Source of the DNA: Austropuccinia psidii
Lineage: Eukaryota; Basidiomycota; Pucciniomycetes; Pucciniales; Sphaerophragmiaceae
Assembly (NCBI GenBank): GCA_023105745.1
Contig: JALGQZ010000011.1
Location: 23,323,975-23,387,974, forward strand
Direction of reading: 5' to 3'
DNA: 64,000 nt
The position numbers and the translations under genes are program-made. The stretch's first letter is position 1. Each line of letters begins with the position of its first letter. The notes under the pieces were generated by a model, which saw only the letters and a program-made list of their open reading frames with translations, was not told the origin of the DNA and did no database searches. Positions 1 to 64,000 of this stretch are shown here, in pieces.

Positions 1-989
1 GTTTATAGTCTTGCCTAGGACTTATCCTCCTTTTGTAGTCCTTTTCCAATCTTTTTGAATACTTCAAATAGGCAGTTTATGGTCTTGCTAAGGACCATTG
101 GTTGATTGTGTTTTAACTTTGAGTCCTTGTTGATAATTCCAATGATGGGCAGTTTATGGTCTTGCCAAGGACCATTGGTTTATTGTTTTGCTGATAATTT
201 CTTGATTTCTTTTTTGAGAGTCTTAGTGGTGGGCAGTTTATGGTCTTGCCAAGGACCATTGGTTACTTTTTTTTATATTATTTGTTGATACTTTGAGTGA
301 TTTTTCATTGCTATTTGAAGGAATTTCTTGATCTTTGAAGGGGCAGTTTATGGTCTTGCCAAGGACTTTTGGTTACTTTTTCTTGTTGATATTCTTGATG
401 ATATCCTGAGGAATTTCTTGATCCTTGAAGGGGCAGTTTATGGTCTTGCCAAGGACTTTTGGTTACTTTTTCTTGTTGATATTCTTGATGATATCCTGAG
501 GAATTTCTTGATCCTTGAAGGGGCAGTTTATGGTCTTGCCAAGGACCATATCTTGTGTACAGGCACCTGATTGTTGCACTTGGGACTTCCTGGCATGTAA
601 TTTATCTTCAAAGCCAAGTTGTATAGTTATCTTAAACAGTTTATAGTCTTATTGAAGACTCATCTTTATTTTAAAAGCACATTTAAGCCTATAAAATAAT
701 AGAAATGTTTTATTAATGTTGCATACCTGTGGAAGCCAAATCAAATATGTTAGTATAGTTATCATTCAAAATAAGAAAGCATAAAAGATAAAATAAGCAG
801 TTTAAAGCCTTGCTGAGGGCCTTTTTGTTTTTTATAGCCATTTTGTTTTATTTTTTATCTCTTCAACCCTTCTTAAGTCATTAAATATATATACACCATT
901 TTTGGTTTGTTTTGAAATATTCCTTTTTTTTTTTGTTTATTTAAGCTTCCTTAATTCATGAAATATATATACTGTTTTTTTGTTTTTTT

Positions 990-1046
<57 letters not shown>

Positions 1047-1463
1047 TCTCTTGTTTCTCATTAAAATAAACCTGTATCAAAAATAAAAAGATAATTTAGC
1101 ATTTATTATGGAAAAAAAGAATCAAATAATAAATAAAACCAAGCAGTTTAAAGCCATGCTGAGGGCTTTTTTTTTGTATATTGAAAGCTTGTAGATTTTA
1201 AAAGAAAATAATTCAGTAAAACTTAAAGATAAAATCAAATTGAATGAAAAAGTTTTAGCAGTTTAATGTCTTGCTGAGGACATATTTTATTTATAGCCTG
1301 AGGGTTCTTGTTAATTTTCCAAAACATAATTAAAAAAAAAAATTTAACAGTTTAAAGTCATGTTGAGGACTTTTTGATGTTTGTTGCTGCAATCCTACAA
1401 AATAAAAAGATAATCAAGAAAATAAATAAAATAAAACAGTTTAAAGTCTTGTTAAGGACTCTT
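1..1463 (-). repeat. Hairpin array A, left arm (13 stem-loops)
   Basis: Thirteen copies of a short motif start near 1, 71, 148, 232, 342, 432, 522, 634, 797, 1142, 1258, 1347 and 1436. On the plus strand each is a constant CAGTTTA followed by a 4-6 bp stem and an 8-nt loop. Examples are ATGGTC-TTGCTAAG-GACCAT at about 79, AAAGCC-ATGCTGAG-GGCTTT at about 1151 and AAAGTC-ATGTTGAG-GACTTT at about 1355. Stem bases change in pairs between copies while loop and flank stay alike. Spacers are AT-rich and mostly unrelated, except that 361-450 and 451-540 are identical 90-bp tandem units. The strand given is that of the linked retroelement. Function is unknown; structured RNA, single-stranded DNA structure or protein-binding sites are all possible. 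Confidence 0.85.
991..1043. repeat. Poly-T tract of 53 bases
   Basis: An uninterrupted T run within array A. On the retroelement sense strand it is poly-A. It is a simple-sequence tract and could be a length-unstable or assembly-sensitive site. Confidence 0.9.
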
Positions 1464-1570
1464 TATTTTTTTATTTATCTTATAGCCCCCTTTTGTTGTT
1501 GTTTTTTTTTTTTTTTTTTGTTTTTTGCTTTGTTGTCAGAAGGTAAGGTAGTCAGTTTGATGGGCTGATC

Positions 1571-2110
1571 TAGAGGCTGTTACAACCCTCTAGGAGCTTC
1601 GGGTAAGCTGTTTCCATCTCTAATTACCCTGCAAAGCACTTTGTTGTGCTTTCAACCACTTCGGGTGGTTAGTTCTTTTTTACCTAGAATTTCTGAAAAC
1701 TGCCTCGGTGCAGTATATTAAGGTGGGGCTCAACCCTGTAAATCTCCTCAGCAGCCCTTTGGGTGGGCTGTTGTAGTCTTGATGGGTGTTATTACACCCT
1801 AATTGAAGCTTTAAAACAGTTCGGGTGACTGTATGGTGCCTGAAAGTGATTGGTGTTGAGGGTTTATGATGCCAGAGGTGTATTTGCTCCTCCACACTTG
1901 AGATTTGTTCCGTGGCTGATTTTTTAACTATAAGGGACTTTGCCTTCCCCTGTAAGGCTCCACACCTCATCGGATGTCTGTATTTGGGCTGTGATGGGTG
2001 CTATCTCACCTTTACGGTGGTTAAATTGATGTCGGGTGGCTGATTTTAATACCTTAAAAAGATGATTCAATCGTGTTAGGTACTTTGGGTGATGTTTCTG
2101 TCACCTTTGG
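1571..2110. repeat. Hairpin arrays B and C, left arm
   Basis: Two hairpin types alternate. Type B has a conserved CGGGT-like loop and unrelated stems: AGCTT-CGGGT-AAGCT (1595-1609), AACCAC-TTCGG-GTGGTT (1654-1670), ACTGC-CTCGGT-GCAGT (1699-1714), CAGCCC-TTTGGGT-GGGCTG (within 1749-1773) and ACAGT-TCGGGTG-ACTGT (1816-1832). Type C sits just before type B in most units: TAGAGG/CCTCTA (1571-1592), AAAGCAC/GTGCTTT (1633-1652) and GGGTGT-TATT-ACACCC (1784-1799). Weaker copies continue to about 2110. Stem divergence with loop conservation argues for conservation of structure. No protein-coding explanation is visible. Confidence 0.75.
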
Positions 2111-3600
2111 AGCATTCCACAGGCTCCAATGTGATCCTAACCAAATCGATGGGTAGCGGTGGCTGTAACATTCTTTTCCGGGCTAACTCCACCACAGGAA
2201 TTAGCCATGTCACTTACTGTTTGGCTCTAACGTTTTGTTTAACACCTGCTGTCAATCACGACAAGCAGCTTGGTTTTGTATTTTGGGTAACTTGTCAACG
2301 TGCTATATTGTACTGTACTGGTGCAGTGTACAGTACATGCCCTTGCCTTTTCTTCTTTCCTCTTCTGACCTACTTGTATTGCTGGCAAATATTGTCTTGA
2401 TGCTGTCGTGATATTCAACATGCATGGTGTTTGTACCAGAGGTAGGGTCTTGTGATGACTGCATGCAGGTGCAGTAGTGTCGTTCTTCTAGCATGTTACT
2501 GAGGCTGTACATTTATATCAAAAACTGAGAATTAGTCAATGAGGTGCTGATGCAAGATCTCTTGTATGATCTATTTTGTTTCTTTTATTTTTTTATTGTG
2601 CATGGATTTAGTGAAGTGGCGATGAGTGTCAGACACCCATCTCCCGGCTTATACGTGATTCAGGTCTGGTTACCAGGCACATGTGATCCTAACTAGATCG
2701 ACTTGTATTGGTAGGTGGCAGATTTTTTTCCCCAAGCTGTTGTGATAGTACAGCTTTTCATTCAGTTAGTTGAATTGTATTGTTTTCTTTGATGCTCTAT
2801 CTACGCAAGTGAGCGCTTATTGGTATTCTTAGGCAAGATCATGGTGCTGCTGGATTCAATGGGCTAGTTCGGTGTGTTAGCCTGTCTGACAGATCGGAGG
2901 CTTGCTGATCCAAATGATCTTTATGGTGTGTTGACACCATGTTTAGCAACAGTAATACAACTTGAAACGACCATAGAAAGATATTCTCCTCCAGATGGTG
3001 GCGTTTATTTTGACATCCTCTTAAGTATTTTCCCTTTTAAATAAAGCCGCTGTGAACCCTTTCGGCTCAGTTCACACATTATTTCTTGTTATTATTTCAT
3101 GTTGCATTCACAATTTCTGGCTCATTTGACTGCATTGCTTGTATTTTTTATTCATATTTGGTAGTGGTGTTAAGTTGGAATTTCGAGTTAGAATCTTTAT
3201 TATGATGGCTGGTTGGCTTTAGAGCGTCTTGAACGTCTTTCCAAGGTTGATCCAAATCCCTTGCTATACACATGGCTGGGTTGTATTGTTCGTTATTGCT
3301 AATGCAAAGAGGAGGGTCAATGGTAGTAACGTGATTTTGTTGATGCTTATGCAAGGGTGCTCGCATTCCTGATTTGTGTTTGGTAAGTCTCTCTCTATAC
3401 TCTGCATGACAATTGTTATCTCCCACTGCAGTGTAAGTAAGTGTTTGGTGAAGCTGATGTTGTCCTCCAAAAACTAAAGGCATGCCATTATAGTGTGTTG
3501 TTTATCTCCTATTTATTCCTGTAAGATGAAGTGCTGTGATTCAAGGAGCCCAACGTTCTGAGCTCTTTATCTCCAACCATAAATAATGCGGAGATAAACG
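2111..3600. other. Non-coding stretch of copy A between hairpin arrays and TATA box
   Basis: Only short, unsupported reading frames occur here. Scattered phrases match the right arm in inverted orientation. For example the stretch around 2128-2180, with a conserved GTGGCTGTAACAT, corresponds to 56755-56810, and the one around 2678-2710 is a second related copy. This shows the region belongs to the same repeated element. I see no gene. Confidence 0.5.
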
Positions 3601-3610
3601 TTTCTTCATG

Positions 3611-3656
3611 AGCCACGGGAGGGCTGTTGGCTATAAATACCCCTGCTTCCGTGGCT
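3611..3656 (+). promoter_or_regulatory. TATA box framed by an 8-bp inverted repeat
   Basis: CTATAAATA at 3631-3639 lies between AGCCACGG (3611-3618) and its exact inverse CCGTGGCT (3649-3656). It faces rightward, towards the 3' end of ORF3 and antisense to the retroelement ORFs. A comparable CTATAAATACC lies on the opposite strand of the right arm at 57271-57280, again facing the ORFs and again with hairpin arrays on its upstream side. Promoter function is inferred from sequence and this recurrence. Confidence 0.45.
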
Positions 3657-3659
3657 AAT

Positions 3660-4530
3660 TCACATTTTCTCTCTTTTTTTTAAAAAATGCATCAAAAGGT
3701 CCCTGCATTTTTTTTCTTTGTTGGGTTGCTTGATTTCGTTATATTTATTTATCTTTGTTAAATCATAGTTGTTTAGTGGTGTTGGTGATATGTAGTCACC
3801 ACCTTTCCAGTGTTTAGTCTTCAAGGTCGCCTATTTTCTTTGCTGTCAAAGACGTTTTTATTTTATTTTTCATATGAAAACTGTTATTGAACAAAGTCTG
3901 GAGCCCCAATAGAACTCTTCATAGGTATTAACTTTCGAGATAGGTTGATTTTGTAAACTAGGAATAGTATCAGAGGAGAGACAAGAAATAAATATATTTT
4001 TATTATATTTATTATGAGATCTGAACGACTATTTTATAGACACCCAAACAGGTGGGTTGTATTGAGAAAACATTTAGAAAATCTATGCATGAAGGCTATA
4101 TAAAATAACAAAACCCAGAAAAATGCAGCAGGGATGAAATTAGGCTGAATCATATAAATCCAAAAGAATATAATAATAAGGCTAAGATTGTATTCTGTAT
4201 CTAGCTTTTTATGTTTTCTGCATAGATATATGTTATCTTTGGAAAATATTCAGATTATGATCTGTTCAGAGAAATTGATATTTCTTTATAAAAATTTATC
4301 TGAAAAAAAAATATAAATTAATTATTGAAGCCTTTTTTTTAAATATGTTCACTATCACCTCTTGTTTTGTAAAAATGAACTATTCAAAGTTAATGTAAGC
4401 TTTCATATAGTTATCACTTATAAGTATAATTTAAGTGGGGACTGATGCTGTCTTTGTCTCTTTCTTTCTTTCTCTTTTTTTTTTTGATTGATTTTTGAAT
4501 AAAATTGGAAATTAGATAAAATAGATAATG

Positions 4531-4567
<37 letters not shown>

Positions 4568-4944
4568 ATGTAAGTGTTTCTTTCTATAATAATTATCTAC
4601 TGATATGAACTGAGTTGAAACTGATTGTCTTTTTGTTGTTGTTTTTCTTTTTTCTTGAGAAAAAAAAATAAATAAATATAACTATAAGATAAAATATTTG
4701 ATATCAGGTAAGCTTATATTCTCTTTCTTCCTTCCAAGCTTATATGAATTGAAGCTTATTTTTAAATTTTTAATATTTTATTTTGTGTCTCTTTCTTTTT
4801 TAGTATAAAAGAAGAATTGAATTGTAAAAGAGGAAGGATGAAAGTGGTAAGAAGAATGAAAAATTGAAGAAATGAATAATAATAATATCAATGGAAATAG
4901 GATTATTAAGCAAATGATTAAGGACTTAGCAGGTGAGATTTTTT
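3660..4944. other. AT-rich 3' region of copy A
   Basis: No convincing gene. The stretch is AT-rich, with a (TA)n microsatellite at 4533-4564 and a C/T-rich tract near 4450-4485. Short matches to the right arm show it is part of the repeated element: the TCTCACCTGCTAAGTCC element on the sense strand near 4923 matches 55726, and a sequence containing ATATCAGTAG near 4598 matches 56023. Confidence 0.5.
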
Positions 4945-5631
4945 TTAGTTCCTTTGACCAAGTATCTTCTTCACTAATTTTTGTTTGATAAAATTTCCTC
5001 CCCTGCATTTTTCTCTTTTCAGACTTTTAAACAAGTATTCCTTACAGAAAGAGTTCCATTCTTCTTTATTCAATTTAGTTGCACCCCCTCTAAGGCTGAA
5101 TATTGCTGGTATAAGTGTTTCTTCCCAGTGGCAATCCCAGGTGGAATTATTAATAACATAACCTCTTGATATCTTGCATATTTTTCCATTTTTAATTTCA
5201 AAGTCCTGAAGGTTTAACCAGTCTTGGCATTCCCAGGTCCTCCAAAATAATGATTTCCTGAGGTGTTCATCCATGTGGAATATTTCATTCCAGTATTGGT
5301 TTCCAAGGTTGCCATCAACTCCATCCCAGGTCAGTATTTCCAAGAATTCATATTTTGTAAGGTTGAATCCAGGTAATTCTTCCCATGGATGAGATATGAC
5401 AATTTCTGTTGGTGAGTTTTCTTTTTCAAAGATGTCCTCAAACTCAATATATGGAAGAAGAATGGTGGAAATATCAGGACAGGGTTCTGGTTTTATTTTC
5501 AAGAACCAGTCAGGATTTTCTTCTATTTCTTGTGAATTGGTGTAATTGGCCCAAACTTCTTTTTCTTCTATCCAGGTGATATCAGTGTCCAATGACCAGG
5601 GATTTTCTTCCAGTAATGGCCAAGATTCCAT
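4945..5631 (-). CDS. Retroelement ORF3, unknown protein related to the ORF1 C-terminus
   Basis: An intact 228-aa frame begins at the ATG at 5629-5631 (MESWPLLEEN). The frame stays open upstream to 5790, but there is no earlier ATG. The protein is acidic and rich in tryptophan and aromatic residues, with no signal peptide or membrane segment. Its central part, LPGFNLTKYEFLEILTWDG followed by a GNLGNQYWNEIF-like stretch, aligns with the C-terminus of ORF1 (LPGANLNKIQFLEILTEEG, then GNLSNQFWDKKF). ORF3 therefore appears to be a duplicated copy of that domain. A second copy is at 55018-55674. The family and function are unknown to me. Three copies of a 35-nt hairpin repeat lie just upstream. Confidence 0.7.
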   Translation of the reverse strand: MESWPLLEENPWSLDTDITWIEEKEVWANYTNSQEIEENPDWFLKIKPEPCPDISTILLPYIEFEDIFEKENSPTEIVISHPWEELPGFNLTKYEFLEILTWDGVDGNLGNQYWNEIFHMDEHLRKSLFWRTWECQDWLNLQDFEIKNGKICKISRGYVINNSTWDCHWEETLIPAIFSLRGGATKLNKEEWNSFCKEYLFKSLKREKCRGGNFIKQKLVKKILGQRN

Positions 5632-5770
5632 TTTGTAGGATTTTGTGGGTTTTGAAGGGTTAAGGTAAGATGAATTGAGAATAGTATCAAATTTATTTAT
5701 GAAAATAGTTTGAGGGTAGGTATAATGGGTTTTGGATGGTAATTTTGGGTGAGAATTTGGATATTCCTCT

Positions 5771-6001
5771 TTGATAAGGCAGGAGGTCACTGCCTTGTGA
5801 TTTTATGGTTGGTTGTTGTTTCTTTTTCTGGGTGAGTGAAATTATTGATTTTATTTGGTTGATAAAAATTTTAGATTTTTCTCTTTGATAAGGCAGGAGG
5901 TCACTGCCTAGTGATTGCTTGATTTGGGGATTGATGGTTATTTAAATTGATAAGAACTTATTTTCCTCTTTGATAAGGCAGGAGGTCACTGCCTAGTGAT
6001 T
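5771..6001 (-). repeat. Three copies of a 35-nt dual-hairpin repeat before ORF3
   Basis: Copies lie at about 5771-5800, 5884-5914 and 5968-6001. On the sense strand each reads TCACTAGGCAGTGACC followed by TCCTGCCTTATCAAAGAG, with small changes. Two stems are possible: TCACT/AGTGA around AGGC, and AGGCAG/CTGCCT around TGACCTC. They share bases, so they exclude each other. The repeat also occurs between ORF1 and ORF2 (6437-6467) and in copy B. A role in splicing, reinitiation or RNA packaging is only inference. Confidence 0.75.
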
Positions 6002-6335
6002 ATTGAAGTTTAAATCTGACTATTTTATTTGATTTTTGATTTTTAGAGCTGTTATGTGTCTTTAAGATGGTCCTTGATGGTTTGAAATTTAATTGGTCCA
6101 TTAATTCTAGAGTAATTTGATCATTGGTTTTGTCAGAAACCTCCAAAATTTTCAGCAATTCCTTGATTTCTTCAATTTCTTGGTTTCTTGTTATTGATGA
6201 AGTATCCTTAAAGTGCCAAAGGCTCTCTTTATTGAAATCTTCATCTTCTGGTGACCAATGAAGTTCTTCATTGATAATTTGGTCTTCTTTTATTAATTCT
6301 TCCCCATAGGATCCAAAAATTGGTGAATTGGCCAT
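6000..6335 (-). CDS. Retroelement ORF2, small acidic unknown protein
   Basis: A complete 111-aa frame runs from an ATG at 6333-6335. The product is acidic in its first two thirds, with a helical E/I/L-rich stretch (about residues 52-75) and a basic tail (KNQKSNKIVRFKLQ). It has no recognised domain. It lies 228 bp downstream of ORF1 and about 370 bp upstream of ORF3 on the same strand, each gap holding the 35-nt repeat. The equivalent in copy B, near 54592-54760, is badly decayed. It could be an accessory protein of the element. The short length makes coding status less certain than for ORF1. Confidence 0.55.
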   Translation of the reverse strand: MANSPIFGSYGEELIKEDQIINEELHWSPEDEDFNKESLWHFKDTSSITRNQEIEEIKELLKILEVSDKTNDQITLELMDQLNFKPSRTILKTHNSSKNQKSNKIVRFKLQ

Positions 6336-6436
6336 GATGGAGGTGATTGATATATTTTTGTAAGTTTTTTTTTTTTTTTTTTTTTTTATTTTTTATTATT
6401 TTTTTTTTAAGAAAAAATTTGTTGATGAATGTCTTC

Positions 6437-6467
6437 TTTGTTAAGGCAGGAAGTCACTGCCCTGTGA
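6437..6467 (-). repeat. 35-nt dual-hairpin repeat between ORF1 and ORF2
   Basis: This is the fourth left-arm copy of the repeat seen at 5771-6001. The GGCAG/CTGCC stem is intact and the other stem is shortened. A counterpart lies at about 54492-54525 in copy B, at the same position relative to the ORFs. A 20-plus-base poly-T run lies at about 6366-6387. Confidence 0.65.
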
Positions 6468-6563
6468 GAGAAAAAATGAAATAAAAGAGAAACTAATAAT
6501 GATACATTTGATGAATGATACTGATACATTTTTGAAAAAAAATCTTGATTTTGTTGATTTTAT

Positions 6564-9500
6564 TTAAAGTTGAGCTCCCCCAAGTGGGAAAGGTGAGTGT
6601 CTGTTGAGCAATCTGACCAAAATAAGGTCTTTGAGGGCTTCCACAAAGTTATTTCTTTCCTCAATCTCTGGTTCTGATGGAAATTCTGACCACCATAAGT
6701 CTTCATCAATGAATATATATCCATCTCCAATCCATTTTATTCTTCCAGTTTGATATGTTGATCCATTTAATCCAAGGTACCACTGGGCCCAAATTTGATT
6801 GAAGTAGAGACCTCTTCTTGGTAAAGTTCCCATTGAAAATTTTTTATCCCAGAATTGATTTGAGAGGTTTCCTTTAATTCCTTCTTCAGTTAATATCTCT
6901 AAGAATTGGATTTTGTTCAAGTTTGCTCCTGGAAGCTGACATAAATATTTATCTTCACATAAAATTTCTTGAGCTTCATCCCCATAAAGGTCTTCAAAGG
7001 TAATATATGGCAGATAAAGGTAGTTGTATTCATTTTCTAGGATGGATTCTGTTTCATCATCTTCATTGGGAGGTTGTTGGATGAATTCAGGGTTTTCCAG
7101 TTGCCATTCATAAGGTTCTTCTTGGTTGTTCAATGGTCTGTCCAAGAAGTTGATATGGTATGTCTCTTTTGAATTTTTGTCTCTTTCTTGCATAATTCTG
7201 AGGTCTTTTTCAATGTCATTTATAATTTCTTCATCTGAGAGCTCATGATGCTCACTAAATCTGACTTTCTTCCTTTTGGTTTTAGTTTTGAAAGGGTTTC
7301 CATATATTTTCTCATTTCCATCCACCAAAATCTGGAAAGTTTCTTCATTATTGTTAATTGGCTTGTAAACTATGTTGGGTAATTCATCTTCAGAGTTTGG
7401 GTCTTCAAGTTGTCTTTTGAGGTTGTTTGGCCATTGGGTATTTTGTAAATCTTGACCAAATTCATCACCCTTTGGAGATATGGATAACTCTTGGGTCTTC
7501 TGGGTTAAATTGATTATGGTATTGTCTCCTTTTGCATTTTGAAACTTCTTTCCTGGGTTATTTCTGACCAATGTTGCCATATTGCATAAATCCATTCCTC
7601 TAGGTGGTCCAGTTTGCCATCCAAGTGCTTGAGGTTTGCATATTGGCATGCATAACCTTCTTCCATCAGGTTCTTGATAACTGAGTATCTCTCCTTGTTT
7701 ATGGGAGAATTCTAGTCTGATATTGTTGTCTGCCAAGAAAGGTCTTCCAAGTACTGTATGGACAGATCCTTTGGCAATAAAAAAGTGAATCAGAGTTTCT
7801 TCACCTGAAGCCAAAATGATTGGAGTAAATTCTGAAAGTGCCACCAATGAAGTAGTATGGCCTCCAATTCCCCTCAGGTTCATGTTAAGGTTTCTTGTTG
7901 TGAGTGAAGCTTTGATTGCTATTTCTTCTGGTATAATGTTGAGTTCTGCTCCAGTGTCCACTAATGCTCTGATAGGATATTCTTCCTTTCCAATAAAGAT
8001 TTCCATAAATCCCAAAGGACAAGCATAATGAATCTTGGGCTTTGGTATTTCTTTGAATCCAAATGTTAATAGTCTTTCTTGAAGATCCATTGAGTTGAGT
8101 GATTTAATTTTTTCCTTGTCTTTTTCTGATAATTCTTGTAATTTATGGACAAAATTTGGTGACATCCTCAAAATTTCTTCAATGGTGAGGTTGATCTTTT
8201 GTTGCATAATTTTTTTAATAATTTTGTCAATTTCCAATTTTGTTTCAACTTGTTTCTTTTGAGGTTTTCTGAGCTTCTTTTCTTCTTTTGGAATTTCCTC
8301 ATCTTCATTCTTATTGTCAATATTCTCAATTTCCTCCTCATGCTGGTCAAATTTTGGAATATTTGAATTTTGGAATTTAGTGGGAATTATTACTCTTTCT
8401 TCTTCCTTTTCTTCTTCAATGTAAGATCCTGGAATTTCTGCCTTTTTCTTTGGCTCTTGATTTTGGGATTGTCTTTCCAACCTTTGTTTTGTCTGTCTTA
8501 ATCCAATGTGTGATTCAAAAGGGTCATTGGCTGAGGAAATGGTAGGTGGTTTCCAGTTTGACCAATCTTCAACATGTGCAATTGAGGTTGATTTATCCTC
8601 TGATTTCTTTTCAGTGGGCTTAACCTCTTCTGCTGGTTTTTCTTTGACAATAGGTTTTTCCATAAATTTCTTGTTGAGTTCTGCTTGTTCTTTTGCAAAG
8701 GCCCTGACTATGTCTTTGGCACTTTCATTTCCTTCCATAGGTACTCTCTGATAGTTGGGGAAGAGGTAAGATGCTCCTTGGGTTCTGACAATTCTTCTGT
8801 CTAAATCTTCAGCAAGGTGAGTGCATCTAGTTGCTGAATGTCCTTCTTCCTTGCAGTAAGCACATTTCATTGGTGGTCTTGGAGCCATTTGAGCTGGTAT
8901 GTATGGTTGATAACTGGATGAAAATGGTGGTAAAGGATTCCTTGGCCTATATGGCTGATTATTTTGAGGTAATCTTTGCTCTTGATTGTTGTTCCAATTC
9001 CTTCTTGGTGGATTCACTGCTTCTGAAAGGCTTTTAAGCTGATTTAAAACTTCTTTAACTGATTCTTTTCCCTCATTTCTTGGCTGAGGTTCTGGTTGTG
9101 GAGGATTTTTGATCTTTTGGGTGAGTTCTTTTACTTGTTTTAAAACTTCATCCCAGCTTTCATCCTCAAATCTTGTTTTCTTTTCTGGAGGTTTTGGTTT
9201 AGAGAATTCTTTTTGTTGAATAAGTACCTTGGCCTCCAAGTCTTGTTCAATGTATAATTTCAAAATATCCAATCTTGGAATGATATAACCTCCATCCAAG
9301 GCTTGAACCATAGCTCTGTCTTTAATCATTTCTTTGTAAATTGATTCTTGAACACTAGTGGAAAGGCTGGCCAATATTTCCTGGTTATGATTGATATCAC
9401 CTTGGATATATTGGTATCTTTTGAGGTAAGTGATGATTGCTTCATATTCCCCAATGAATTTTCTGTATTGAGTCATGTTTCTTATTCCACCTTCTTGTTG

Positions 9501-10193
9501 AGTTTTTGTGAATAATTCAGTGATTGAGGATAATCTGTATCTTCTTTCAGGTGAGACTGTTCCCCATCTTCTTTTCATATCCACTTTCAATTGATCCCAA
9601 TCAGCTGTTTCATATCCCGGCATTCCTTCAATATGATAACTGATTTCTTCATCTTTTGTCCAAAATGCTATTTGTCTTGCAATGTCTCTTCCACTTGCTC
9701 CTTCAATTTCTGCAATATTTTCAACTTTCTTGATGAATCTTTCAACATCCTTTCCATCAAACCACAAGTTATAGTCCTTGGCTCTGATTTTCACTATTGG
9801 AGTAGTGTTTCTTGGAATTTCTTGATGTGATGGAGTTGAAATTTGAGCAGAAATGTTTACTCTTCTTGGTAAAGTACTTTGTCTTTGTTCTGTATAAGGT
9901 GTTGATGTGGCCATGGGTCTAGGATAAGGTGAAGGTGATCCATGCTGCCTGAATGATCTTGGGAGGGTGGTTTGTTCTTCAAGTGGACTATTTTGTGGAG
10001 TATAACTTGATGATTTATTTTTGCCTTCCTTTTTGATTAGTGCTAGTAATTCTGCTTGCATTTCTAGCATCTTCTGCTGAAGTCTCTCTGTTGAAGCAAT
10101 TTCTTCCTGTCCTTCAACAGTTTCTTCATTAAAGTTTTCTTCCTGGATTTCTTCAATACTACCAGGTAATTTTGATGATGAAGGTTTATCCAT
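6564..10193 (-). CDS. Gag-protease polyprotein (ORF1) of an LTR retroelement without visible RT
   Basis: An intact frame encodes 1209 aa from the ATG at 10191-10193. The frame is open back to about 10460 without an ATG, so a spliced or non-AUG extension is possible. Domains in order: a low-complexity N-terminus; a capsid-like gag core (about residues 140-315, with FWTKDEEISYHIEGMPGYE); a CCHC zinc knuckle C-x2-C-x4-H-x4-C (residues 444-457); a charged linker; a retropepsin-type protease with DTGAELN (catalytic Asp about 746) and the later VLGRPFLADN strand; and a C-terminal domain shared with ORF3. No reverse transcriptase, RNase H or integrase follows within the window. The expected role is capsid formation and self-cleavage. 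Decayed copies lie at 50697-54417 and 44430-46556. Confidence 0.88.
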   Translation of the reverse strand: MDKPSSSKLPGSIEEIQEENFNEETVEGQEEIASTERLQQKMLEMQAELLALIKKEGKNKSSSYTPQNSPLEEQTTLPRSFRQHGSPSPYPRPMATSTPYTEQRQSTLPRRVNISAQISTPSHQEIPRNTTPIVKIRAKDYNLWFDGKDVERFIKKVENIAEIEGASGRDIARQIAFWTKDEEISYHIEGMPGYETADWDQLKVDMKRRWGTVSPERRYRLSSITELFTKTQQEGGIRNMTQYRKFIGEYEAIITYLKRYQYIQGDINHNQEILASLSTSVQESIYKEMIKDRAMVQALDGGYIIPRLDILKLYIEQDLEAKVLIQQKEFSKPKPPEKKTRFEDESWDEVLKQVKELTQKIKNPPQPEPQPRNEGKESVKEVLNQLKSLSEAVNPPRRNWNNNQEQRLPQNNQPYRPRNPLPPFSSSYQPYIPAQMAPRPPMKCAYCKEEGHSATRCTHLAEDLDRRIVRTQGASYLFPNYQRVPMEGNESAKDIVRAFAKEQAELNKKFMEKPIVKEKPAEEVKPTEKKSEDKSTSIAHVEDWSNWKPPTISSANDPFESHIGLRQTKQRLERQSQNQEPKKKAEIPGSYIEEEKEEERVIIPTKFQNSNIPKFDQHEEEIENIDNKNEDEEIPKEEKKLRKPQKKQVETKLEIDKIIKKIMQQKINLTIEEILRMSPNFVHKLQELSEKDKEKIKSLNSMDLQERLLTFGFKEIPKPKIHYACPLGFMEIFIGKEEYPIRALVDTGAELNIIPEEIAIKASLTTRNLNMNLRGIGGHTTSLVALSEFTPIILASGEETLIHFFIAKGSVHTVLGRPFLADNNIRLEFSHKQGEILSYQEPDGRRLCMPICKPQALGWQTGPPRGMDLCNMATLVRNNPGKKFQNAKGDNTIINLTQKTQELSISPKGDEFGQDLQNTQWPNNLKRQLEDPNSEDELPNIVYKPINNNEETFQILVDGNEKIYGNPFKTKTKRKKVRFSEHHELSDEEIINDIEKDLRIMQERDKNSKETYHINFLDRPLNNQEEPYEWQLENPEFIQQPPNEDDETESILENEYNYLYLPYITFEDLYGDEAQEILCEDKYLCQLPGANLNKIQFLEILTEEGIKGNLSNQFWDKKFSMGTLPRRGLYFNQIWAQWYLGLNGSTYQTGRIKWIGDGYIFIDEDLWWSEFPSEPEIEERNNFVEALKDLILVRLLNRHSPFPLGGAQL

Positions 10194-10548
10194 TTTTGGT
10201 TGGTTTATTTCCTCCTTTGATTTTGGTGTTGAGTTATTGATTTTATTTCTTTCAAGGAGATCAAGGAAGAATTTTTCCACAACCTTCAAGTCCCTTTTAT
10301 TGGTTCTTGGTGTTGCAATAGGAAAATTAGAATATTTTTCTGATTCCTCTCCTAATTCTGATTCTTGTTTGGGTGGATAATAGTAATGGTCAGAGTGAGT
10401 TGATGATTCAGATTCTTGAGATGATGGTTTTTGCTGATTTTGATTATTTGAATCCAGTTTTTGTTATAGTAGTAATATCTTTTAATGTAGTTTTTTTTTT
10501 TGATTTATTGGAATTTTATTTATATGTTATTGAAGTTTGAGGTTGACT

Positions 10549-10569
10549 GGCCACTGTTGGGACACCAGA
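10549..10569 (-). promoter_or_regulatory. Primer binding site-like sequence of copy A
   Basis: Two bases beyond the LTR end, the sense strand reads TGGTGTCCCAACAGTGGC, starting with the TGG expected to pair with a tRNA CCA tail. The identical sequence follows the LTR of copy B at 50412-50429. Which tRNA would prime was not determined. Confidence 0.7.
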
Positions 10570-12470
10570 TGTGGGAACTCCTCTTGTGTGGGATTAAAAT
10601 GAGGCAGTACCTGGAGGGGGAAATCACAGGTAACTAGTTTTGAATTGCTAATAACTCCTGTAACCAAGGGTGGCAAGGGTGTATTGCCTGCCCCTCCTGA
10701 AATACTGAACAAAATCTTCCTTGGAGCTCACAAACCAAAATAAAATTAGTAAGTGGCTTTACAACTGCAGAAGACAAAATTCAGCAGTCTCAGATCAGAC
10801 CTATTCAATAAATGATATGAAAAATAATGTCAGTAATTTTGGTTAATTTTTAGATTTAATGAAATACTTGTCTGTTTTAATTTTAATCTTTTGGTTAAAT
10901 TGAGGTGAGTGGTTTCTTCTTGGTGATAAAATTTTTGTAAGATGAGTTATTTAAGGTGTTCAGAAAAATCTGGTGAGTGTTGGTAAAGGTAATTTTTTTG
11001 TTAAGGTATAGTTATAATAGAGTAAATAATTTTTTAAAGGTTTGTTATTCTTTTTTAAGAGTGTTAATAGTGAGATAAAATAGTATTTGTTAAATTTAAG
11101 AGGTAAGATTTCTTTGATATTGGATTTTTTAAAGGCGTAAGTAATTTTTAAGTCTTGATAATTTGTGTTAATTTTACTGGATAAAATATTTTAATAGAGT
11201 AGTAACCCTAATCTTGGGTACTGGGTAATTTTTAATAATAATTTTTAATTTTTTTTTTAATACTAAGATTCCACTGAGCTTAGCTACTGGGCAATCTTGA
11301 ACACTATACTTCCACTGAGCTTCAGCTACTGGGCAAGTAAATTCACTATAATTTGCTGGACTACCTCCCAGATGAGGGATGACTTATTCCTGTGCTTGTA
11401 ATGTGCAGAGGATATATTGTGCATGGGATATAATTTTCATCATGTGACTCTGTTTTTGGTGAGGACCTTTGTTGCATGGGTCTGGTGATTTAAGGTTTGG
11501 TGATAATTTTCTCTCTGCACAGCCTCCATTTATCACATGATTATCTTTTGGTGGACTAATTATGATGTGATATTCTTGGATTTTCCTTGCATGCATGAGG
11601 TGATTCAATTTTGGCTGGGGATTTTTGTTGTGCACAGCCTCTTTCTTGTCACATGATATTCTATTGGTGGATGCAGTATCACATGATGACCTTGTAATTC
11701 CTTTGCATATGTCCTATTTTAGGTTTGGTAGAAGTGGCTGTGTAATTTATGCAGGTGTCATGTTTGTTTTTCTTCTTTTTGAACTTTAAAATGAAGTCAG
11801 GTGATAACTTCTTGCACTGGTGAATTTACTGTTTTTATGAGATGATGTGATTTTTGATTTTGACACATGCTGTGCATAGTCAGGTGGTTGAGATTTAATT
11901 GGAATTGTGTACTGCATGCAGCCTGTTGTAACTAGCTTTGGTTTGCATGAGGTGATGAGTGGTGTAAATAATTTTGATTTGGTTTTAAGGTTTTAAGTGG
12001 GGTTACTGTGGATATAAGATAAGGTACTCCTGGGGCTGTGTTGTAAATGAATTGCAGGAATTCCATGGAGTTGAGCTTTGCATCATGTGACTTTTCTATG
12101 TTAAGTTCTAGGTTGCTGTGTAGTTCATGCAGGTGTCCTTTTCTTGCTGCATGAGTCCTGTGGCTATAAGGGGGTGTAAAGCTGGGTGGGGTGTGTAATC
12201 TAAAGGGTGGTACCTCATTTGTTGTAACTAGTTTGCTATATGTAAATTGATTTTTTACATATGCATAGTGAAATTGAATAAGTTATTTAAACACATACAC
12301 TTCCCTTTGGTGCCTGTGCCATGGTTTTATGAGTTAAATCCAGCTTCTTGCTGTAAAATTGACCTTTTGGTGTAAAATTTAAGTGTAAGTCTGCCTGTAG
12401 GCTGGATTTCCTGCTGTTATAGGGTACTATGAGCTTGAGCCTGGTGAAAAAAATGGTATGGAATACCACA
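10570..12470 (-). repeat. LTR of copy A (about 1.9 kb)
   Basis: In plus-strand coordinates it begins TGTGGGAACTCCTC and ends GGTATGGAATACCACA. On the minus strand it therefore starts TGTGG and ends CCACA, as expected of an LTR. It aligns along most of its length with 48430-50409. The R/U5 side (11200-11345) has tandem copies of a CAGTAGCT-CAGTGGAA phrase. Relative to copy B, about 100 bp holding the CATAAATAGAGGGG TATA region is replaced by an unrelated 30-40 bp near 11400-11440. The intact-coding copy may therefore lack its usual core promoter. The partner LTR lies outside the window. Confidence 0.8.
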
Positions 12471-46556: not shown

Positions 46557-46558
46557 AC

Positions 46559-48330: not shown

Positions 48331-48429
48331 TTGAGAATGTTGTCCCTGTTGCTTGAACCCATGACCTTGTCAGATTTCAGCTTCAGATATCCTCCTTATC
48401 AACTCTCATGGGAAACATTTCACAGTTGT

Positions 48430-50409
48430 TGTGGTATTCCATACCATTTTTTCTTCACCAGGCTCAAGCTCGTAGTACCCCATAACAGAAGTAAATCCCG
48501 CCTACAGGCAGACTTACACTCAAATTTTACACAAAAAGGTCAATTTTACAGCAAGAAGCTGGATTTAACTCATAAAACCATGGAACAGGCACCAAAGGGC
48601 AGTATACGTATTTAAATAAATTATTCAATTTCATTATGCATATGTAAAAATTGAGTTACATATATTAAACTAGTTACAAAAAATAAGGTACCACCCTTTA
48701 AAATTACACACCCCAACCAGCCTTACACCCCCTTATAGACACAGGACTCATACAGCATGAAGATTACACATGCATTAACTACACAGCCACCTTTCATTCA
48801 ATATAGAGAGTCACATGATGCAAAGCTAAACCCCATGAAATTCCTGAAAGTCATTTAAAACACAGCCCCAGGAGTACCTTATCTTACATCCACAGTAACC
48901 CCACTCTAAACCTTGAAACAGGATCAGAATTATTTATACCACTCATCACCTCCTGAAAACCAAAACTATTCACAACAGGATGCATGAAGTACACAATTTC
49001 TAATTAAATCTCAACCACATGACTATGCACAGCATGTGCCAAACTCAAAGATTAAATCATCTTATACATAACAGTAAATGAATCAGTGCAAGAATTATTA
49101 CCTGACCTCATTTTGAATTTCAAAAAGAAGAAAAACAACCATGACACCTGCATAAATCACACAGCCACATCTACCAATCCTAAAATATGAAATATGCAAA
49201 GGAATTACAAGGTCATCATGTGATACTGCATCCACCAACAGAATATCATGTGACAGAAAAGAGGCTGTGCACAACAAATATCCCGAGCCAGAATTGAATC
49301 ACCTCATGCATGCAAGGAAAATTCAAGAATATCACATTGTAATTAGTTCACCAAAATACAATCATGTGATGAAAGGAGGCTGTGCAGAGACACAATTATC
49401 ACCAAACCTTAAATCACCTGACCCGTGCAAGAAAGGTCCTCACCAGAAACAGAGTCACATGATGAAATCAAGAAGAATTAAAGTGGGAAAAGACAGCTCC
49501 CATGGAGGGCCCCCCAGGCTCCCAAAAGGCATAAATAGAGGGGCTCTCTCCCCAAATTTCAAAATCCCCCCCATGCACATTGCAAGCATAGGAATAATTC
49601 ATCCCTCACCTGGGAGGTAGTCCAGTATATTATAGTAACTTTACTTGCCCAGTAGCTAAGCTCAGTGGAAGTCTAGTGTTGAAGATTACCCAGTAGCTAA
49701 GCTCAGTGGAATCTTATTATTATTAAAATAAAAAATAATAATAAGTAAAAATTACCCAGTACCCAAGATTAGGGTTACTAATTTATTAAAATATTTTATC
49801 CAGTAGAATTAACACCATTTATCAAGACTTAAAATCAACTTACCCCTTTAAAAATCCAATATTAAAGAATCTTACCTCTTAAAATGAACAAATACAATTT
49901 TATTTTATTATTAAACACCCTTAAAAAACATAAAAAAACCTTTAAAAATTATTTTACTCTATTTTAACTTTACCTTAACAAAAATCATCTTTATCAACAC
50001 TCACCAAATTTTCTGAATACATTAAATAACTCATCTTACCAAATTTTTATCACCAAGAAGAAACCGCTCACCCTCATTTCACCGAAAGAAACAAAAATGA
50101 TACAGACAAGTATTTCATTAAAAATCTAAAAATTAACCAAAATTACTGACATTATTCTTCATATTATATATTGCATAGTTCTGCTCTGAGACTGCTGAAT
50201 TTTGTCTTCTGCAGTTGTAAAGCCACTTACTAATTTTATTTTGGTTTGTGAGCTCCAAGGAAGATTTTGTTCAGTATTTTAGGAGGGGAAGGCAATACAC
50301 CCTTGCCACCCTTGGTTACAGGAGTTATTAGCAATTCAAAACTAGTTACCTGTGATTTCCCCCTACAGTTACTGCCTCATTGTAATCCCACACAAGAGGA
50401 GTTCCCACA
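48430..50409 (+). repeat. LTR of copy B (1980 bp)
   Basis: Starts TGTGGTATTCCATACC and ends GAGGAGTTCCCACA, and aligns with the inverse of 10570-12470. A TATA-like CATAAATAGAGGGGCTCTCT lies at about 49530-49549. Downstream, near 49645-49770, are tandem CCCAGTAGCTAAGCTCAGTG units. It is followed by a primer binding site. The sister LTR would lie beyond the window. Confidence 0.8.
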
Positions 50410-50411
50410 CC

Positions 50412-50429
50412 TGGTGTCCCAACAGTGGC
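50412..50429 (+). promoter_or_regulatory. Primer binding site-like sequence of copy B
   Basis: TGGTGTCCCAACAGTGGC, two bases after the LTR end and identical to the copy A site. Identity between otherwise diverged copies supports function. Confidence 0.7.
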
Positions 50430-50696
50430 TGACAACCTCAACTTCAATAAAAAAATCAATTAAATTACAATCAATTTAAAAATTCTTAACTACTCCAGAA
50501 TACCTTTTTTATAAAAAGAAACTGGAGTCAAATAATCAAAATCAGCCAAACCCATCATCTCAGGAATCTCAATCCTCAACTCACTCTGACTATTAATATT
50601 ATCCACCACAGCAAGAAACAGAATTAGGGCAGGAATAAAACAAATATTCCAATTTCCCAATTCCAACACTAATAACCAATAAAAGGGACTTGAAGG

Positions 50697-53600
50697 TTGT
50701 GGAGAAATTCTTCCTTTATCTCCTTGAAAGAAATAAACTCAATAAATCAATCTCAAAAGCGGAAATTAACCAATCAAAAATGGATACACCTTCATCATCA
50801 AAATTACCTGGTAGTATTGAAGAAATCCAGGAAGAAAACCTTAATGAAGAAACTGTTGAAGGATAGGAAGAAATGTCTTCAACAGACAGACTTCACCAGA
50901 AAATACTAGAAATGCAAGAAAAACTATTATCATTAATCAAAAAAGAAGGGAAAAACAAATCATCCAGTTATACTCCACAAAATAGTCCACTTGAAGAACA
51001 GACCACCCTTCCAAGATCATTCAGGAAACATGGATCACCTTCCCCTTATCCAAGATCCATGGCCACATCAACACCTTATACAGAACAAAGACAAAATACC
51101 TTACCAAGAAGAGTCAGCATTTCTTCCAAAATTCCAATTCCATCACATCCAGAAATTTGAAGAAAAACTACTCCAATAGTAAAAATTAGAGCCAAAGACT
51201 ACAACTTGTGGCTTTATGGAAAGAATGTTGAAATATTAATCAAAAAAGTTGAAAATATTGAAGAAATTGAAGGAGCAAGTGGAAGAGACATTGCAAGAAA
51301 AATAGCATTTTGGACAAAAGATGAAGAAATCACCTATCATATTCAAGGAATGCCAGGATATGAAACAGCTTATTGGGATCAATTGAAAGTGGATATGAAA
51401 AGAAGATGGGGAACAGTCTCAACTGAAAGAAGGTAAAGATTATCCTAAATCACTGATTTATTCACAAAAACTCAACAAGAAGGTGGAATAAGAAACATGA
51501 CTCAATACAGAAAATTCATTGGGGAATATGAAGCAATCATCACCTACCTCAAAATATACCAAGATATTCAAGGTGATATCAACCATAATAAAGAAATATT
51601 AGCCAGCCTTTCCACAAGTGTTCAAGAGTAATGTTACAAGGAAATGATCAAAGACAGAGCTATGGTTCAAGCCTTGGATGGAGGTTACATCATTCCAAGA
51701 TTGGATATTTTGAAATTATACATTGAACAAGACTTGGAGGCCAAGGTACTTATTCAACAAAAAGAATTTTCCACACCAAAGCCTCCAGAAAAGAAAACAA
51801 GATTTGAGGATAAAAGTAAAGATAAAGTTTTAAAAAAAGTAAAAGAACTCACCCACAAGATTAAAAATCTTCCACAACCAGAGCCTCAACCAAGAAATGA
51901 GGGAAAAGAATCAGTTAAAGAAGTAATAAATCAACTTAAAGCCCTATCAGAAGCTGTTAATCCACCAAGAAGGAACTAGAACAATAATAAAGAGCAAAGA
52001 TTCCCCCAAAATAATCAGCCATATAGGCCAAGGAATCCTTTAGCACCATTTTAATCCAGTTACCAACCATACATACCAGCTCAAATTGCTCCAATACCAC
52101 CATTAAAATGTGCTTACTTCAAGGAAGAAGGCCATTAATCAACTAGATGTACTCATCTTGCTGAAGATTTGGAGAGAAGAATTGTCATAACCAAAGGAGA
52201 ATCTTACCTCTTTCCCAATTATCAGAGAGTACCTATGGAAGGAAATGAAAGTGCCAAAAACATAGTCAGAGGCTTTGCAAAGGAACAAGCAGAACTCAAC
52301 AAGAAATTTATGGATAAACCTACTGTCAAACCAAAAACAGAAGAAGAGGTGAAACCCACTGAAAAGAAACAAGAAGAAAAATTAACCTCAATTGCTCATG
52401 TTGAAGATTGGTCAAATTGGAAACCACCACCATTTCCTCAGCCAATGATCCTTTTGAATCCCACATTGGATTAAGACATACAAAACAAAGAATAGAAAGA
52501 CAATCCCAAAGTCAAGAGCCAAAGAAGAAAGCAGAAATTCCAGGAACTTACATTAAAGAAGAAAAGGAAGAAGAAAGAGTAATAATTCCCACCAAATTCC
52601 AAAATTCAAATATTCCAAAACCAGACCAACTGGAGGGGAAATTGAGAATATTTCCAATAAGAATGAAGATGAAGAAATTCCCAAAGAAGAAAAGAAGTTC
52701 AGAAAACCTCAAAAGAAACAAGTTGAAACTAAATTGCAAATTCAAAAAATTATTAAAAAAATTATGCAACAAAAGATCAACCTCACCATTGAAGAAATTT
52801 TGAGGATGTCACCAAATTTTGTCCACAAATTACAGGAATTATCAGAAAAAGACAAAGAGGAAATTATATTGCTCAACTCAATGGATCTTCAAGAAAGACT
52901 ATTATCATTTGGACTCAAAGAAATACCAAAGCCCAAGATTCATTATGCTTGTCATTTGGGATTTATGGAGATATTCATTGGAAAGGAAGAATATCCTATG
53001 AAAGCATTATCGGACACTGGTGCAGAACTAAACATAATACCAGAAGAAATAGCAATCAAATCCTCACTCACAACAAGAAAACTAAACATGAACCTTAGGA
53101 GAATTGGAGGCCATACTACTTTATTGGTGGCACTTTCAGAATTTGCTCCAATAATCTTGGCTTCAGTCAAAGAAACTCAAATACACTTTTTCATTGCAAA
53201 AGGATCTGTCGATACAGTATTTGGAAGACCCTTTTTGGCATACAATAACATTAGGCTTGTTTTTCTCACAAACAAGGAGAAATACTGAGCTATCAAGAAC
53301 CTGATGGAAGAAGATTATGCATGCCAACATGCAAACCTCAAGCACTTGGATGGCAAACTGGTCCTCCTAGAGGAATGGATTTATGCAACATGGCCAGGTT
53401 AGTCAGAACTACTCCATGAAATAAGGTTAAAAATGCAAAAAGAGACAATACCATAATCAATGTGACCCAGAAGACCAAAGAGTTACCCATATCTCCAAAA
53501 GGTGATCAATTTGTTCAAAATTTACAAAACAACAAATAGTCAAACAACCTCAAAAGACAACTTGAAGACCCAACCTCTGAAGATGAATTACCCAGCATAG

Positions 53601-54417
53601 TTTACAAGCCAATTAACAACAATGAAGAAACCTTCCAGATTTTGCTGAATGGAAATGAGAAAATAAATGGAAATCTTTTCAAAACCAAACCTAAAAGGAA
53701 GCAAGTCAGATTTAGTGAACATCATGAGCTTTCAGCACAAGAAATTATCAATAAAATAGAAAAAGACTTCAAAATTATGGAAGAGAGACAAAAATTTGAA
53801 AGAAACATACCATATGAACTTCTTCAATAGACAATTGAACAACCAAAAAGAACTTCATGAATGGCAACTGGAAAACACGGAATTCATCCAGCAACCTGCC
53901 AATGAAGATGAAGAATCAGAATCAAACCTAGAAAATGAATACAACTACCTTTACTTGCCATATATTACCTTTGAAGACATTTATGGGGATGAAGCTCAAG
54001 AAAGTTTATGTGAGGATAAAAATTTATATCATCTTGCAGGAGGAAACTTGAACAAAATACAATTCCTAGAGCTATTAACTGAAGAAGTAATTAAAGGAAA
54101 CCTCTCAAATTAATTCTGGGATAAAAAATGCTTAATGGGAGTTTTACCAAGAAGAGGACTCTACTTCAATCAAATTTGGGCTCAATGGTACCTTGGATTG
54201 AATGGATTAACATACCAGACTGGATGACTGAAATGGGTTGGAGTTGGATATATATTCATTGATGAAGACTTATGGTGGTCAGAATTTCCATCAGAAACAG
54301 AAATTGAAGAAAGAAATGCCTTTGTGGAAGCCCTCAAAGACCTTATTTTGGCCAGGTTACTCAACAGACACTCACCTTTCCCACTTGGGGGAGCTCAACT
54401 TCAAATAAAATCAACAA
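50697..54417 (+). pseudogene. Gag-protease ORF1 of copy B, inactivated
   Basis: Co-linear with the intact 6564-10193 frame but broken by many stops and frame changes. Examples are TAG near 50865, TGA near 51160, TAA at about 51435, 51630 and 51978, and several frameshifts around 52430-52740 and 53285. The zinc-knuckle region near 52108-52150 has lost residues. The protease motif (SDTGAELNIIPEEIA, about 53010) survives in the frame 52734-53288. The C-terminal shared domain is visible near 54040-54420. Not functional as a protein. Confidence 0.85.
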
Positions 54418-54489
54418 AATCAAGATTTCTTCTCTAAAAATGTATCAGTATCATCCATAAAATGTATCATTAGTTTCTTTTTTCATTTT

Positions 54490-54880
54490 GTCTCATAGGA
54501 AGTGAATTCCTGCCTTAACAAAGAAGCAACTTATAAATCAATTATTTCTCAAAAAAAATAACTTACATTCAAAATATTAATCACCTCCACCATGGACACG
54601 TCACCAGTTTTTTGATCCTAAGGGGAAGAATCAATAAAAGAAGACCAGATTTTTAATTAATATCCAATTTTAAAACCAGAAGATGAAGATATCAATAAAG
54701 AAACCCTTTGGCACTTCAAAGAGACTCCAGCAATATCAGAAAAAACCAAAAAGAAATCACTAGGCAGTGACCTCCTGCCTTATCATGAGGAAAATCATTT
54801 CTTAGAAACCAAATTCACCATTTTCCTTCACCAAAACTCAATCATCACTAGGCAGTGACTTCCTGCATTATCAAAGAGGA
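54490..54880 (+). repeat. 35-nt dual-hairpin repeats of copy B, with ORF2 relic
   Basis: Copies lie at about 54492-54525, 54757-54790 and 54844-54880, matching the four in copy A in sequence and in position relative to the ORFs. Between the first two lies a decayed ORF2 (from about 54592) with several stops. The stems AGGCAG/CTGCCT and TCACT/AGTGA are intact in the 54757 copy. Confidence 0.65.
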
Positions 54881-55017
54881 ATATCCAAATTATTACCCAA
54901 AATTATCATCCAAAACTCATTATATCTACTCTCAAACTATTTTGATAAATGAAATCTGATAAAATTTTCAAATATTATTACCTTTTAACACTCCAAAAAT
55001 CCACCATATCCTTCAAA

Positions 55018-55674: not shown

Positions 55675-55679
55675 GTTAG

Positions 55680-57190: not shown

Positions 57191-57270
57191 CTTACCTTCT
57201 AACAATGACAGGGTTAAAAAAAAAGGAACAGGAAGGAAGCAAACAAACACTCACATGCAAGAAGGCGAGG

Positions 57271-57280
57271 TATTTATAGT
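57271..57280 (-). promoter_or_regulatory. Antisense TATA box, right arm
   Basis: ACTATAAATACC on the minus strand points toward the retroelement ORFs, as the one at 3631 does in the left arm. Function is inferred only. Confidence 0.35.
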
Positions 57281-59890: not shown

Positions 59891-59899
59891 AGAAACACT

Positions 59900-62202: not shown

Positions 62203-62246
<44 letters not shown>

Positions 62247-63935: not shown

Positions 63936-64000
63936 GAATTCAATTTACAACTTGGCTTTGAAGATAAAGAAAATGTCATGAAAGCCAAAAGTATCAAACA

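Follow-up and report, generated by a model that had tools for sequence, protein, structure and literature searches.

A repeated pseudoknot RNA in gag-protease LTR elements of Austropuccinia psidii and in phages, a candidate roadblock to 5'-3' exoribonucleases

Introduction

The 64,000-nucleotide stretch of Austropuccinia psidii DNA analysed here (hereafter the window; C11:23323975-23387974) carries two arrays of a short motif, one in each of two inverted copies of a single LTR element, and base covariation shows each copy of the motif to be an RNA of about 30 nt that is predicted to fold into an H-type pseudoknot. The motif, with a characteristic sequence, pairing, strand preference, place and repetition, recurs in two element families of the fungus and in phages. 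On balance, the array probably works as a series of roadblocks to 5'-3' exoribonucleases in the 3' non-coding part of an element that encodes only gag and protease, leaving stable 3' RNAs; both the nuclease block and its benefit to the element are what we infer.

The repeated unit and its fold

An original prediction, made from the letters of the window, had described thirteen motifs in the left arm and about 30 over both arms, and the present count is the same: 13 and 17 copies, 30 in all (Table 1). Twenty-eight of them were detected by a PWM scan, one has a 1-nt insertion and one is cut by the window edge; the counts given below for 28 window copies exclude these last two. The insertion copy, at 62899, has one extra loop base and was located by string search, while the remainder of the edge-cut copy lies in the left-flanking stretch (L131), which holds two further pseudoknot copies belonging to the left element (L131 8276 and 8158). 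The right element has 6 additional copies in the right-flanking stretch (L132). A loose form of the pattern gave 16 matches in the window, against 0.05 expected from shuffles.

The stem variants listed in the prediction are present, and the stem covaries among the 28 copies. The loop and flank, which had been called constant, both vary, and they do so together: in the window alone AGCA/UGCU, AACA/UGUU and GGCA/UGCC are found (TGCT, TGTT and TGCC in DNA letters), and elsewhere GACA/TGTC. Since loop and flank covary in addition to the stem, the motif is an H-type pseudoknot, and the plain hairpins first proposed are ruled out by the covariation of the loop with the bases after the spacer. The elements follow the order S1a-S2a-S1b-S2b, with covariation in both stems. 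S1 has 4-6 bp, with a C-G pair adjoining the loop, and encloses an 8-nt loop, typically C-U-N-R-G-C-A-W; in S2, four or five loop bases pair with those just after a conserved spacer (typically UUAAAC-UGCUN). One copy reads, in the sense direction, AAGCC CUC AGCA U GGCUU UAAAC UGCU, where S1 is formed by AAGCC with GGCUU and S2 by the loop bases AGCA with the UGCU after the spacer.

In the 28 window copies, pair 14-25 is T-A in 14, C-G in 13 and other in 1, pair 12-27 shows three Watson-Crick types, and an outer pair is G-C or C-G in 11. When 29 window copies (28 distinct) were compared with shuffles, the pseudoknot structure paired 87.5% of the cells (75.8% in shuffles; at most 43.6% in slid controls) and 43 two-sided changes were counted (16.7 in shuffles), neither observed value being reached in any of 500 shuffles. 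The number of further pair types in these 29 copies was not above that of the shuffles, 488 of 500 reaching the observed value.

Covariation across the genome

In the whole assembly (1,015,390,075 bases, 84 contigs) the strict motif pattern has 3065 matches (1496 + 1569) and its reversed control none. A sample of 30 stretches, made up of the two flanks of the window and 28 stretches picked among the first-listed places of contig C1, contained 355 copies with a PWM score above 18; the copies of each stretch lay on a single strand, and reversed controls gave 0. The window's element family has 8-26 copies per stretch in 20 of the C1 stretches, all on the sense strand, and a second element family has 2-9 copies per stretch in the other 8.

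Covariation was assessed on 352 unique 40-mers, window copies included. Watson-Crick pairs were found at S2 pair 3-19 in 333 of the 352 (190 expected; G-C 236, A-T 74, T-A 23), at S1 pair 14-25 in 342 (176 expected; T-A 196, C-G 146) and at S1 pair 12-27 in 306 (140 expected; A-T 170, G-C 87, T-A 49). Helix pairs take the first three ranks among 780 column pairs. Two of these, S2 3-19 and S1 14-25, lie above all values obtained in 60 replicates of a tree-based null, in agreement with the prediction that a nucleic acid strand is selected for its base pairing; the third, S1 12-27, has E=0.25. This null, which keeps the changes per column, is a custom one and not R-scape, and its trees are drawn from the same short columns. 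In it S2 2-20 and 1-21, fifth and seventh of the 780, are not significant singly, nor is S2 4-18, and the other helix pairs rank 41st or lower, several of them because their columns hardly vary. At least three of the four inner pairs are kept in both stems in 331 of the 352 copies (column shuffles: mean 256, maximum 273).

Wobble pairs legal on the sense strand number 176 in these copies, against 59 on the opposite strand, and the unit under selection is therefore most likely the sense RNA of the element. The letters given in the original prediction are the reverse complement of this wobble-favoured strand, which in the left arm is the minus strand.

Moreover, some copies in the window (61840-63910, sense strand) and in other arrays have a tag of about ACAGGGCTATAAA 10-40 nt upstream, which could pair with the S1 5' arm (GCCCU) in a possible alternative hairpin, in part of the copies only. 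A switch in which this tag (about ACAGGGCTA) pairs with S1 was considered and set aside; the regular-expression form of the tag occurs in 40 of 299 upstream stretches (reversed control 0).

The host element

Each array arm is part of a copy of one LTR element; the two copies are inverted and share blocks of 5.2 and 1.0 kb at 88-89% identity and one of 1.1 kb at 82%. The ORF list, Pfam and the LTR comparison uphold the location predicted for the array, a non-coding region towards the 3' end of an LTR element whose gag-protease ORF is intact and in which no RT is visible. From 5' to 3' the left element consists of 5' LTR, putative primer-binding site, gag-protease ORF, 285-aa ORF, non-coding sequence, array, the two copies in L131, a purine-rich tract and 3' LTR, and in the 20 stretches sampled the arrays of the family are located between the coding part and the polypurine tract with the 3' LTR. 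The LTRs of the left element are 99.84% identical over 1909 aligned bases (blastn), end in TGTGG...CCCACA and are flanked by an apparent GTGG target duplication (both by eye); the LTR identity and the duplication indicate that this element moved recently.

Table 1. Coordinates of the LTR element copies and of the pseudoknot arrays in the window
Feature	Position	Strand	Description	Basis
Left LTR element	1..12470	-	window part; about 16.8 kb in all	LTR comparison
Left element, 3' LTR	L131 5699-7607		beyond left window edge	
Left element, 5' LTR	10570..12470	-	blastn aligns 10570-12476	blastn
Putative primer-binding site	10551..10567	-	two bases after LTR	by eye
Gag-protease ORF	6564..10463	-	1299 aa stop to stop; zinc knuckle, DTG protease motif, no RT; no internal stop	
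Second ORF	4945..5802	-	285 aa stop to stop; no Pfam match	
Left array	1..1467	-	13 pseudoknot copies	PWM scan, pairing table
Left copies	1-26 (edge-cut), 70-103, 147-180, 231-264, 341-374, 431-464, 521-554, 634-667, 795-828, 1141-1174, 1256-1289, 1345-1378, 1434-1467	-		
Right copy of the element	48424..64000	+	inverted; runs off right edge	self-comparison, Pfam, neighbour L132
Right array	61622..63936	+	17 pseudoknot copies	PWM scan, string search, alignment
Right copies (34 nt), starts	61622, 61842, 61959, 62094, 62238, 62369, 62440, 62538, 62740, 62899, 63025, 63269, 63401, 63518, 63633, 63819, 63903	+		

With an LTR pair and gag, and with no RT or integrase seen, the element has the make-up of a gag-only LTR retrotransposon. 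In a survey of the intact pieces, no ORF of 150 aa was found in window 1-4944 and none of 80 aa in L131 7608-10000, and the DNA of the second ORF has an 82% identical counterpart at 54746-55807. Protein search for relatives of the gag gave 3, all from Austropuccinia psidii; in viral contigs there were 2 pattern matches, none of which was confirmed.

Other features were seen in and around the two elements. A hAT dimerisation domain, from hAT-like transposase sequence, is matched by Pfam inside the span of the right element (59119-59682), and between the two elements, at 45121-46633, lies a third, diverged sequence related both to the gag region (67-69% DNA identity over 600 bp) and to the LTR-end region. 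Two blocks, 12590-13157 and 20035-20543, consist of imperfect, GC-richer repeats whose CCTTACGCTTGCGGAGTGCC-like units measure about 40-50 nt; the first adjoins the left element 5' LTR just outside it. Further Pfam matches in the window are a Tet-like 2OG-Fe(II) oxygenase (18553-19701), a tnp2/Plavaka-type transposase (32811-34421), and a Ty3-type ORF pair of gag and protease-RT-RNaseH with an integrase zinc-binding domain (40375-44084).

A second element family

The second family (L151-L157 and L160) has a gag-protease that is 42-47% identical to that of the window family over long matches in the four loci compared. The DNA common to both is limited to LTR pieces of at most 245 bp (77-79%) and, where the LTR starts, a segment about 50-68 nt long; L157 shares no DNA segment with the window element. 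The second family retains the fold, many of its copies having GACA/UGUC as S2, and the array lies upstream of the LTR-start segment in the six loci showing that segment. The one locus fetched with both LTRs has LTRs 97.5% identical. Arrays vary in size between elements.

In three second-family loci (L172:5904-9101, L173:6507-8372 and L174:6687-7967) the gag and protease ORFs, taken stop to stop, are consecutive in the same frame with a single stop codon between them. Since the protease Pfam matches follow the stop in L172 and precede it in L173, the three stops need not be the same.

Occurrence in phages and prokaryotes

The sense consensus has two exact matches in viral contigs, and a looser form matches at least 120 stretches of viral contigs, almost always outside long ORFs. 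The search pattern was derived from the fungal consensus, and its spacer and other fixed bases are thus no independent evidence; among the 113 unique copies aligned out of 133 listed pattern instances, the column that the pattern leaves free is paired in all 113 and shows four pair types, while the next-but-one outer pair is Watson-Crick in 82 and wobble in 13, and the free S2 pair is Watson-Crick in 86 and wobble in 12. Motif midpoints fall inside an ORF of 100 aa in 7 of 133 cases, against 61% of random places. The copy of Staphylococcus phage phiETA lies between the minor head and scaffolding genes, and that of Lentibacter phage ICBM2 overlaps an annotated gene.

A covariance model built from the 113 copies found further ones with new S2 helices (GGACA/UGUCC, GGUCA/UGACC, CAGGCA/UGCCUG and GAUGCA/UGCAUC). 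The search covered 100 of the first 122 phage loci and gave 164 matches, 109 of which are aligned copies; of the other 55, 49 were read out. Thirty-four model matches of length 35 were counted, one being a pattern match identical to an aligned copy. The 38 new unique copies, added to the 113, gave 151 phage copies, in which helix pairs make up the top six of 595 column pairs (100 replicates), with E values of 0 for two, 0.03 for one and 0.67-1.72 for three, and sense-strand wobbles number 45 against 9 of the opposite kind. The phage model, which was built without fungal copies although its underlying pattern came from the fungal consensus, recovers 25 of the 30 window copies at E <=10, with E below 0.02 for 21; the 7 matches that it gives elsewhere in the window have E >=0.39. 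In the 30 fungal stretches it has 199 matches at E <=0.01.

Phage records with the motif (159 and 155) belong most often to Staphylococcus phages (85 and 88), and other hosts are Lactobacillus, Bacillus, Streptococcus and cyanobacteria, as well as Vibrio (27 records), Moraxella (4) and Methylophilales (4). RNase J is expected in the Staphylococcus, Lactobacillus, Bacillus, Streptococcus and cyanobacterial hosts; Vibrio, Moraxella and Methylophilales lie, to our knowledge, outside its range. The examples from Vibrio (26.2 bits) and Moraxella (35.4 bits) appear genuine, those of Salmonella (17.8 bits) and Pectobacterium (15.3 bits) lie inside genes, and a Pseudomonas example was not recovered by the covariance model. 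In 84,980 prokaryote species genomes a strict form occurs in only 11 stretches: Clostridium, Syntrophomonadaceae, a Bacteroidetes bacterium, Ktedonospora, Hornefia, Oscillatoriaceae, Planomicrobium, Colwellbacteria and three without a taxon name. In some phage contigs (L077, L115) one strand bears several copies, numbering at least 8 in L077 by the covariance model, and in L041:342-531 two copies adjoin a tRNA-like sequence (by eye).

Likeness to coremin and other known RNAs

In Rfam 15 no match at the gathering score was found in the whole window; window 61600-64000 had 14 matches at E <=1, none at the gathering score and most of them on a TA repeat. L001 and L002 gave no match at E <=1 and no riboswitch, and a tRNA check found none.

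The closest published relative is coremin (xrRNA_C), an Xrn1-resistant RNA of plant viruses and fungal dsRNA viruses, with expanded-loop forms in Hypoviridae and Chrysoviridae. As outlined in PMC10520033, it has a 4-bp hairpin with a YGAD or YGNNAD loop, and natural repeats and loops of up to 8 nt are on record; changing the C and U of its spacer abolishes resistance, a second hairpin is required, an octaloop works and Xrn1 stops just before hairpin 1. That 2023 paper presents coremin without a solved structure.

By the coremin features described there, the likeness is as follows. The stem has the same C-G closing pair (28/28 window, 342/352 fungal and 151/151 phage copies; 4 bp in coremin), the UUAAACU spacer is common to both, AAACU being intact in 320 of 352 fungal copies, and the loop starts with C or U (351/352), has a penultimate A (350/352) and ends in A, G or U (352/352); orientation along the RNA and natural repetition also agree. 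The printed coremin 20-mer fits the class pattern G-N-C-C-loop-W-G-N-C-N-UUAAACU, as do 0 of 3,000,000 random 20-mers, a comparison that does not correct for the choice of coremin among many known motifs. Unlike coremin as there described, the present motif does not follow the YGAD/YGNNAD rule, since the second loop base is G in 0 of 352 copies and the loop has 8 nt; it is found in long arrays, DNA-encoded in a retrotransposon and in phages, and its resistance would be a matter of analogy. In place of the second hairpin stands the pseudoknot helix S2. No second hairpin follows it: the 30 nt downstream fold below -3 kcal/mol in 8% of fungal and 17% of phage copies, against 7% and 16% of shuffles. 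By the features tested, the motif is thus not a strict member of coremin, and it nonetheless probably works in a coremin-like way. The near-invariant loop A (350/352) pairs with the spacer U, and S2 is therefore proposed to replace the loop-spacer contact and the second hairpin of coremin.

Flaviviral and tombus/solemovirus-type xrRNAs, as described in PMC5760640 and PMC10520033, are likewise pseudoknot blocks to 5'-3' exonucleases in 3' non-coding RNA, often in tandem (two), but they have larger ring-forming folds of other sequence, and no ring is predicted here. A flaviviral xrRNA stops bacterial RNase J1 too (PMC5760640), and one fold could therefore serve against unrelated enzymes.

As to the host, the element resembles the LARD and TR-GAG types in its LTRs, its long non-coding interior and the lack of a visible RT, and differs from them in the protease in its gag ORF and in its conserved pseudoknot array. 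LARD and TR-GAG elements are non-autonomous LTR retrotransposons with gag only or little coding sequence. LARDs are named in PMC12210899, in whose main text the words 'hairpin' and 'tandem repeat' have 0 occurrences. Among the listed titles and abstract beginnings of open-licence papers, preprints excluded, no such RNAs were found in phages or retrotransposons.

Proposed function and alternatives

Exonuclease resistance, which was absent from the candidates named in the original prediction, is what the phage relatives and the likeness to coremin point to. The knot would be a mechanical block to a 5'-3' exoribonuclease, like coremin and the flaviviral xrRNAs, the blocked enzyme being Xrn1 in the fungus and RNase J in phage hosts. 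Were the long RNA of the element degraded from its 5' end, degradation would halt at the array, so that stable 3' RNAs containing the array and the 3' LTR would persist, and repetition of the copies would make an imperfect block reliable. Such RNAs could act as a decoy for decay or silencing, or could retain the 3' end needed for reverse transcription; in phages the knot would protect the 5' ends of messages. Counting against a block to exoribonucleases are the phage hosts that, as far as we know, have no RNase J, and the mismatches with the coremin loop rule and second hairpin.

The strongest of the alternatives, itself unlikely, is that a protein, in the simplest case the element's own Gag, binds the pseudoknots, which would be a repeated signal for packaging or dimerisation and would let a gag-protease-only element be encapsidated and use the reverse transcriptase of another element. 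Tandem hairpins as packaging signals are a familiar idea, two related gag-protease families carry arrays in the same region, and being packaged matters to both because no RT is seen in either; however, the same fold and unpaired bases recur in phages without such a Gag, outside long ORFs and near gene starts, and the array is far from the 5' LTR.

Somewhat less likely again is a translation or ligand-responsive element in phages, either a riboswitch or a ribosome roadblock, with the fungal array using the fold otherwise. In 111 of 133 phage copies an ORF of 50 aa or more has its start codon within the next 200 nt downstream (median 31 nt), and coremin, according to PMC10520033, blocks scanning ribosomes in vitro. 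Against this reading, the fungal array is in non-coding sequence, L001 and L002 have no Rfam riboswitch match, and the downstream phage genes are mixed: the 20 tested against PHROG include scaffolding (3), ssDNA-binding, endonuclease, PhoH-like and excisionase-like genes, 6 in unnamed families and 7 without a match. This mixture speaks for a general role in RNA stability rather than for a ligand switch.

Repeated short hairpins in a high-copy element might also be processed into small RNAs or feed a silencing pathway, but such a small-RNA cluster is very improbable, given that Dicer-type processing needs stems far longer than the 4-6 bp found here and that the pairing of loop and tail and the invariant spacer would be left unexplained. 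Finally, a functionless decaying tandem repeat of a few stem variants is scarcely credible: recent duplication does explain 2.5 units of 90 nt (99% identical) in the left array and array sizes differ between elements, but within the other genome arrays cores are 71% and spacers 33-37% identical (2597 copy pairs), covariation goes beyond the tree-based null, and pairing is kept with other S2 letters in the second family and in phages.

Implications

Beyond the roadblock reading of the fungal array, we entertain more tentatively, as a possibility somewhat short of even, that phages (against RNase J) and the gag-protease-only LTR elements of a rust fungus, in arrays of up to 26 copies (against Xrn1), employ a single small class of pseudoknot as a general roadblock to 5'-3' exoribonucleases, with the coremin of plant and fungal RNA viruses as a shortened form. 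If this broader reading is true, the RNAs would be, within the literature searched, the first of their kind for a retrotransposon and for phages, and covariation would predict the coremin fold, with the loop A pairing with the spacer U. Two questions are thereby opened: how coremin-type RNAs stop Xrn1, and whether phages shield their messages from 5'-3' decay. Moreover, one tiny fold would block RNA-decay enzymes in bacteria and eukaryotes, transposable elements would join viruses as users of decay-resistant RNA, and a function would be provided for the long non-coding 3' region of elements that lost reverse transcriptase.
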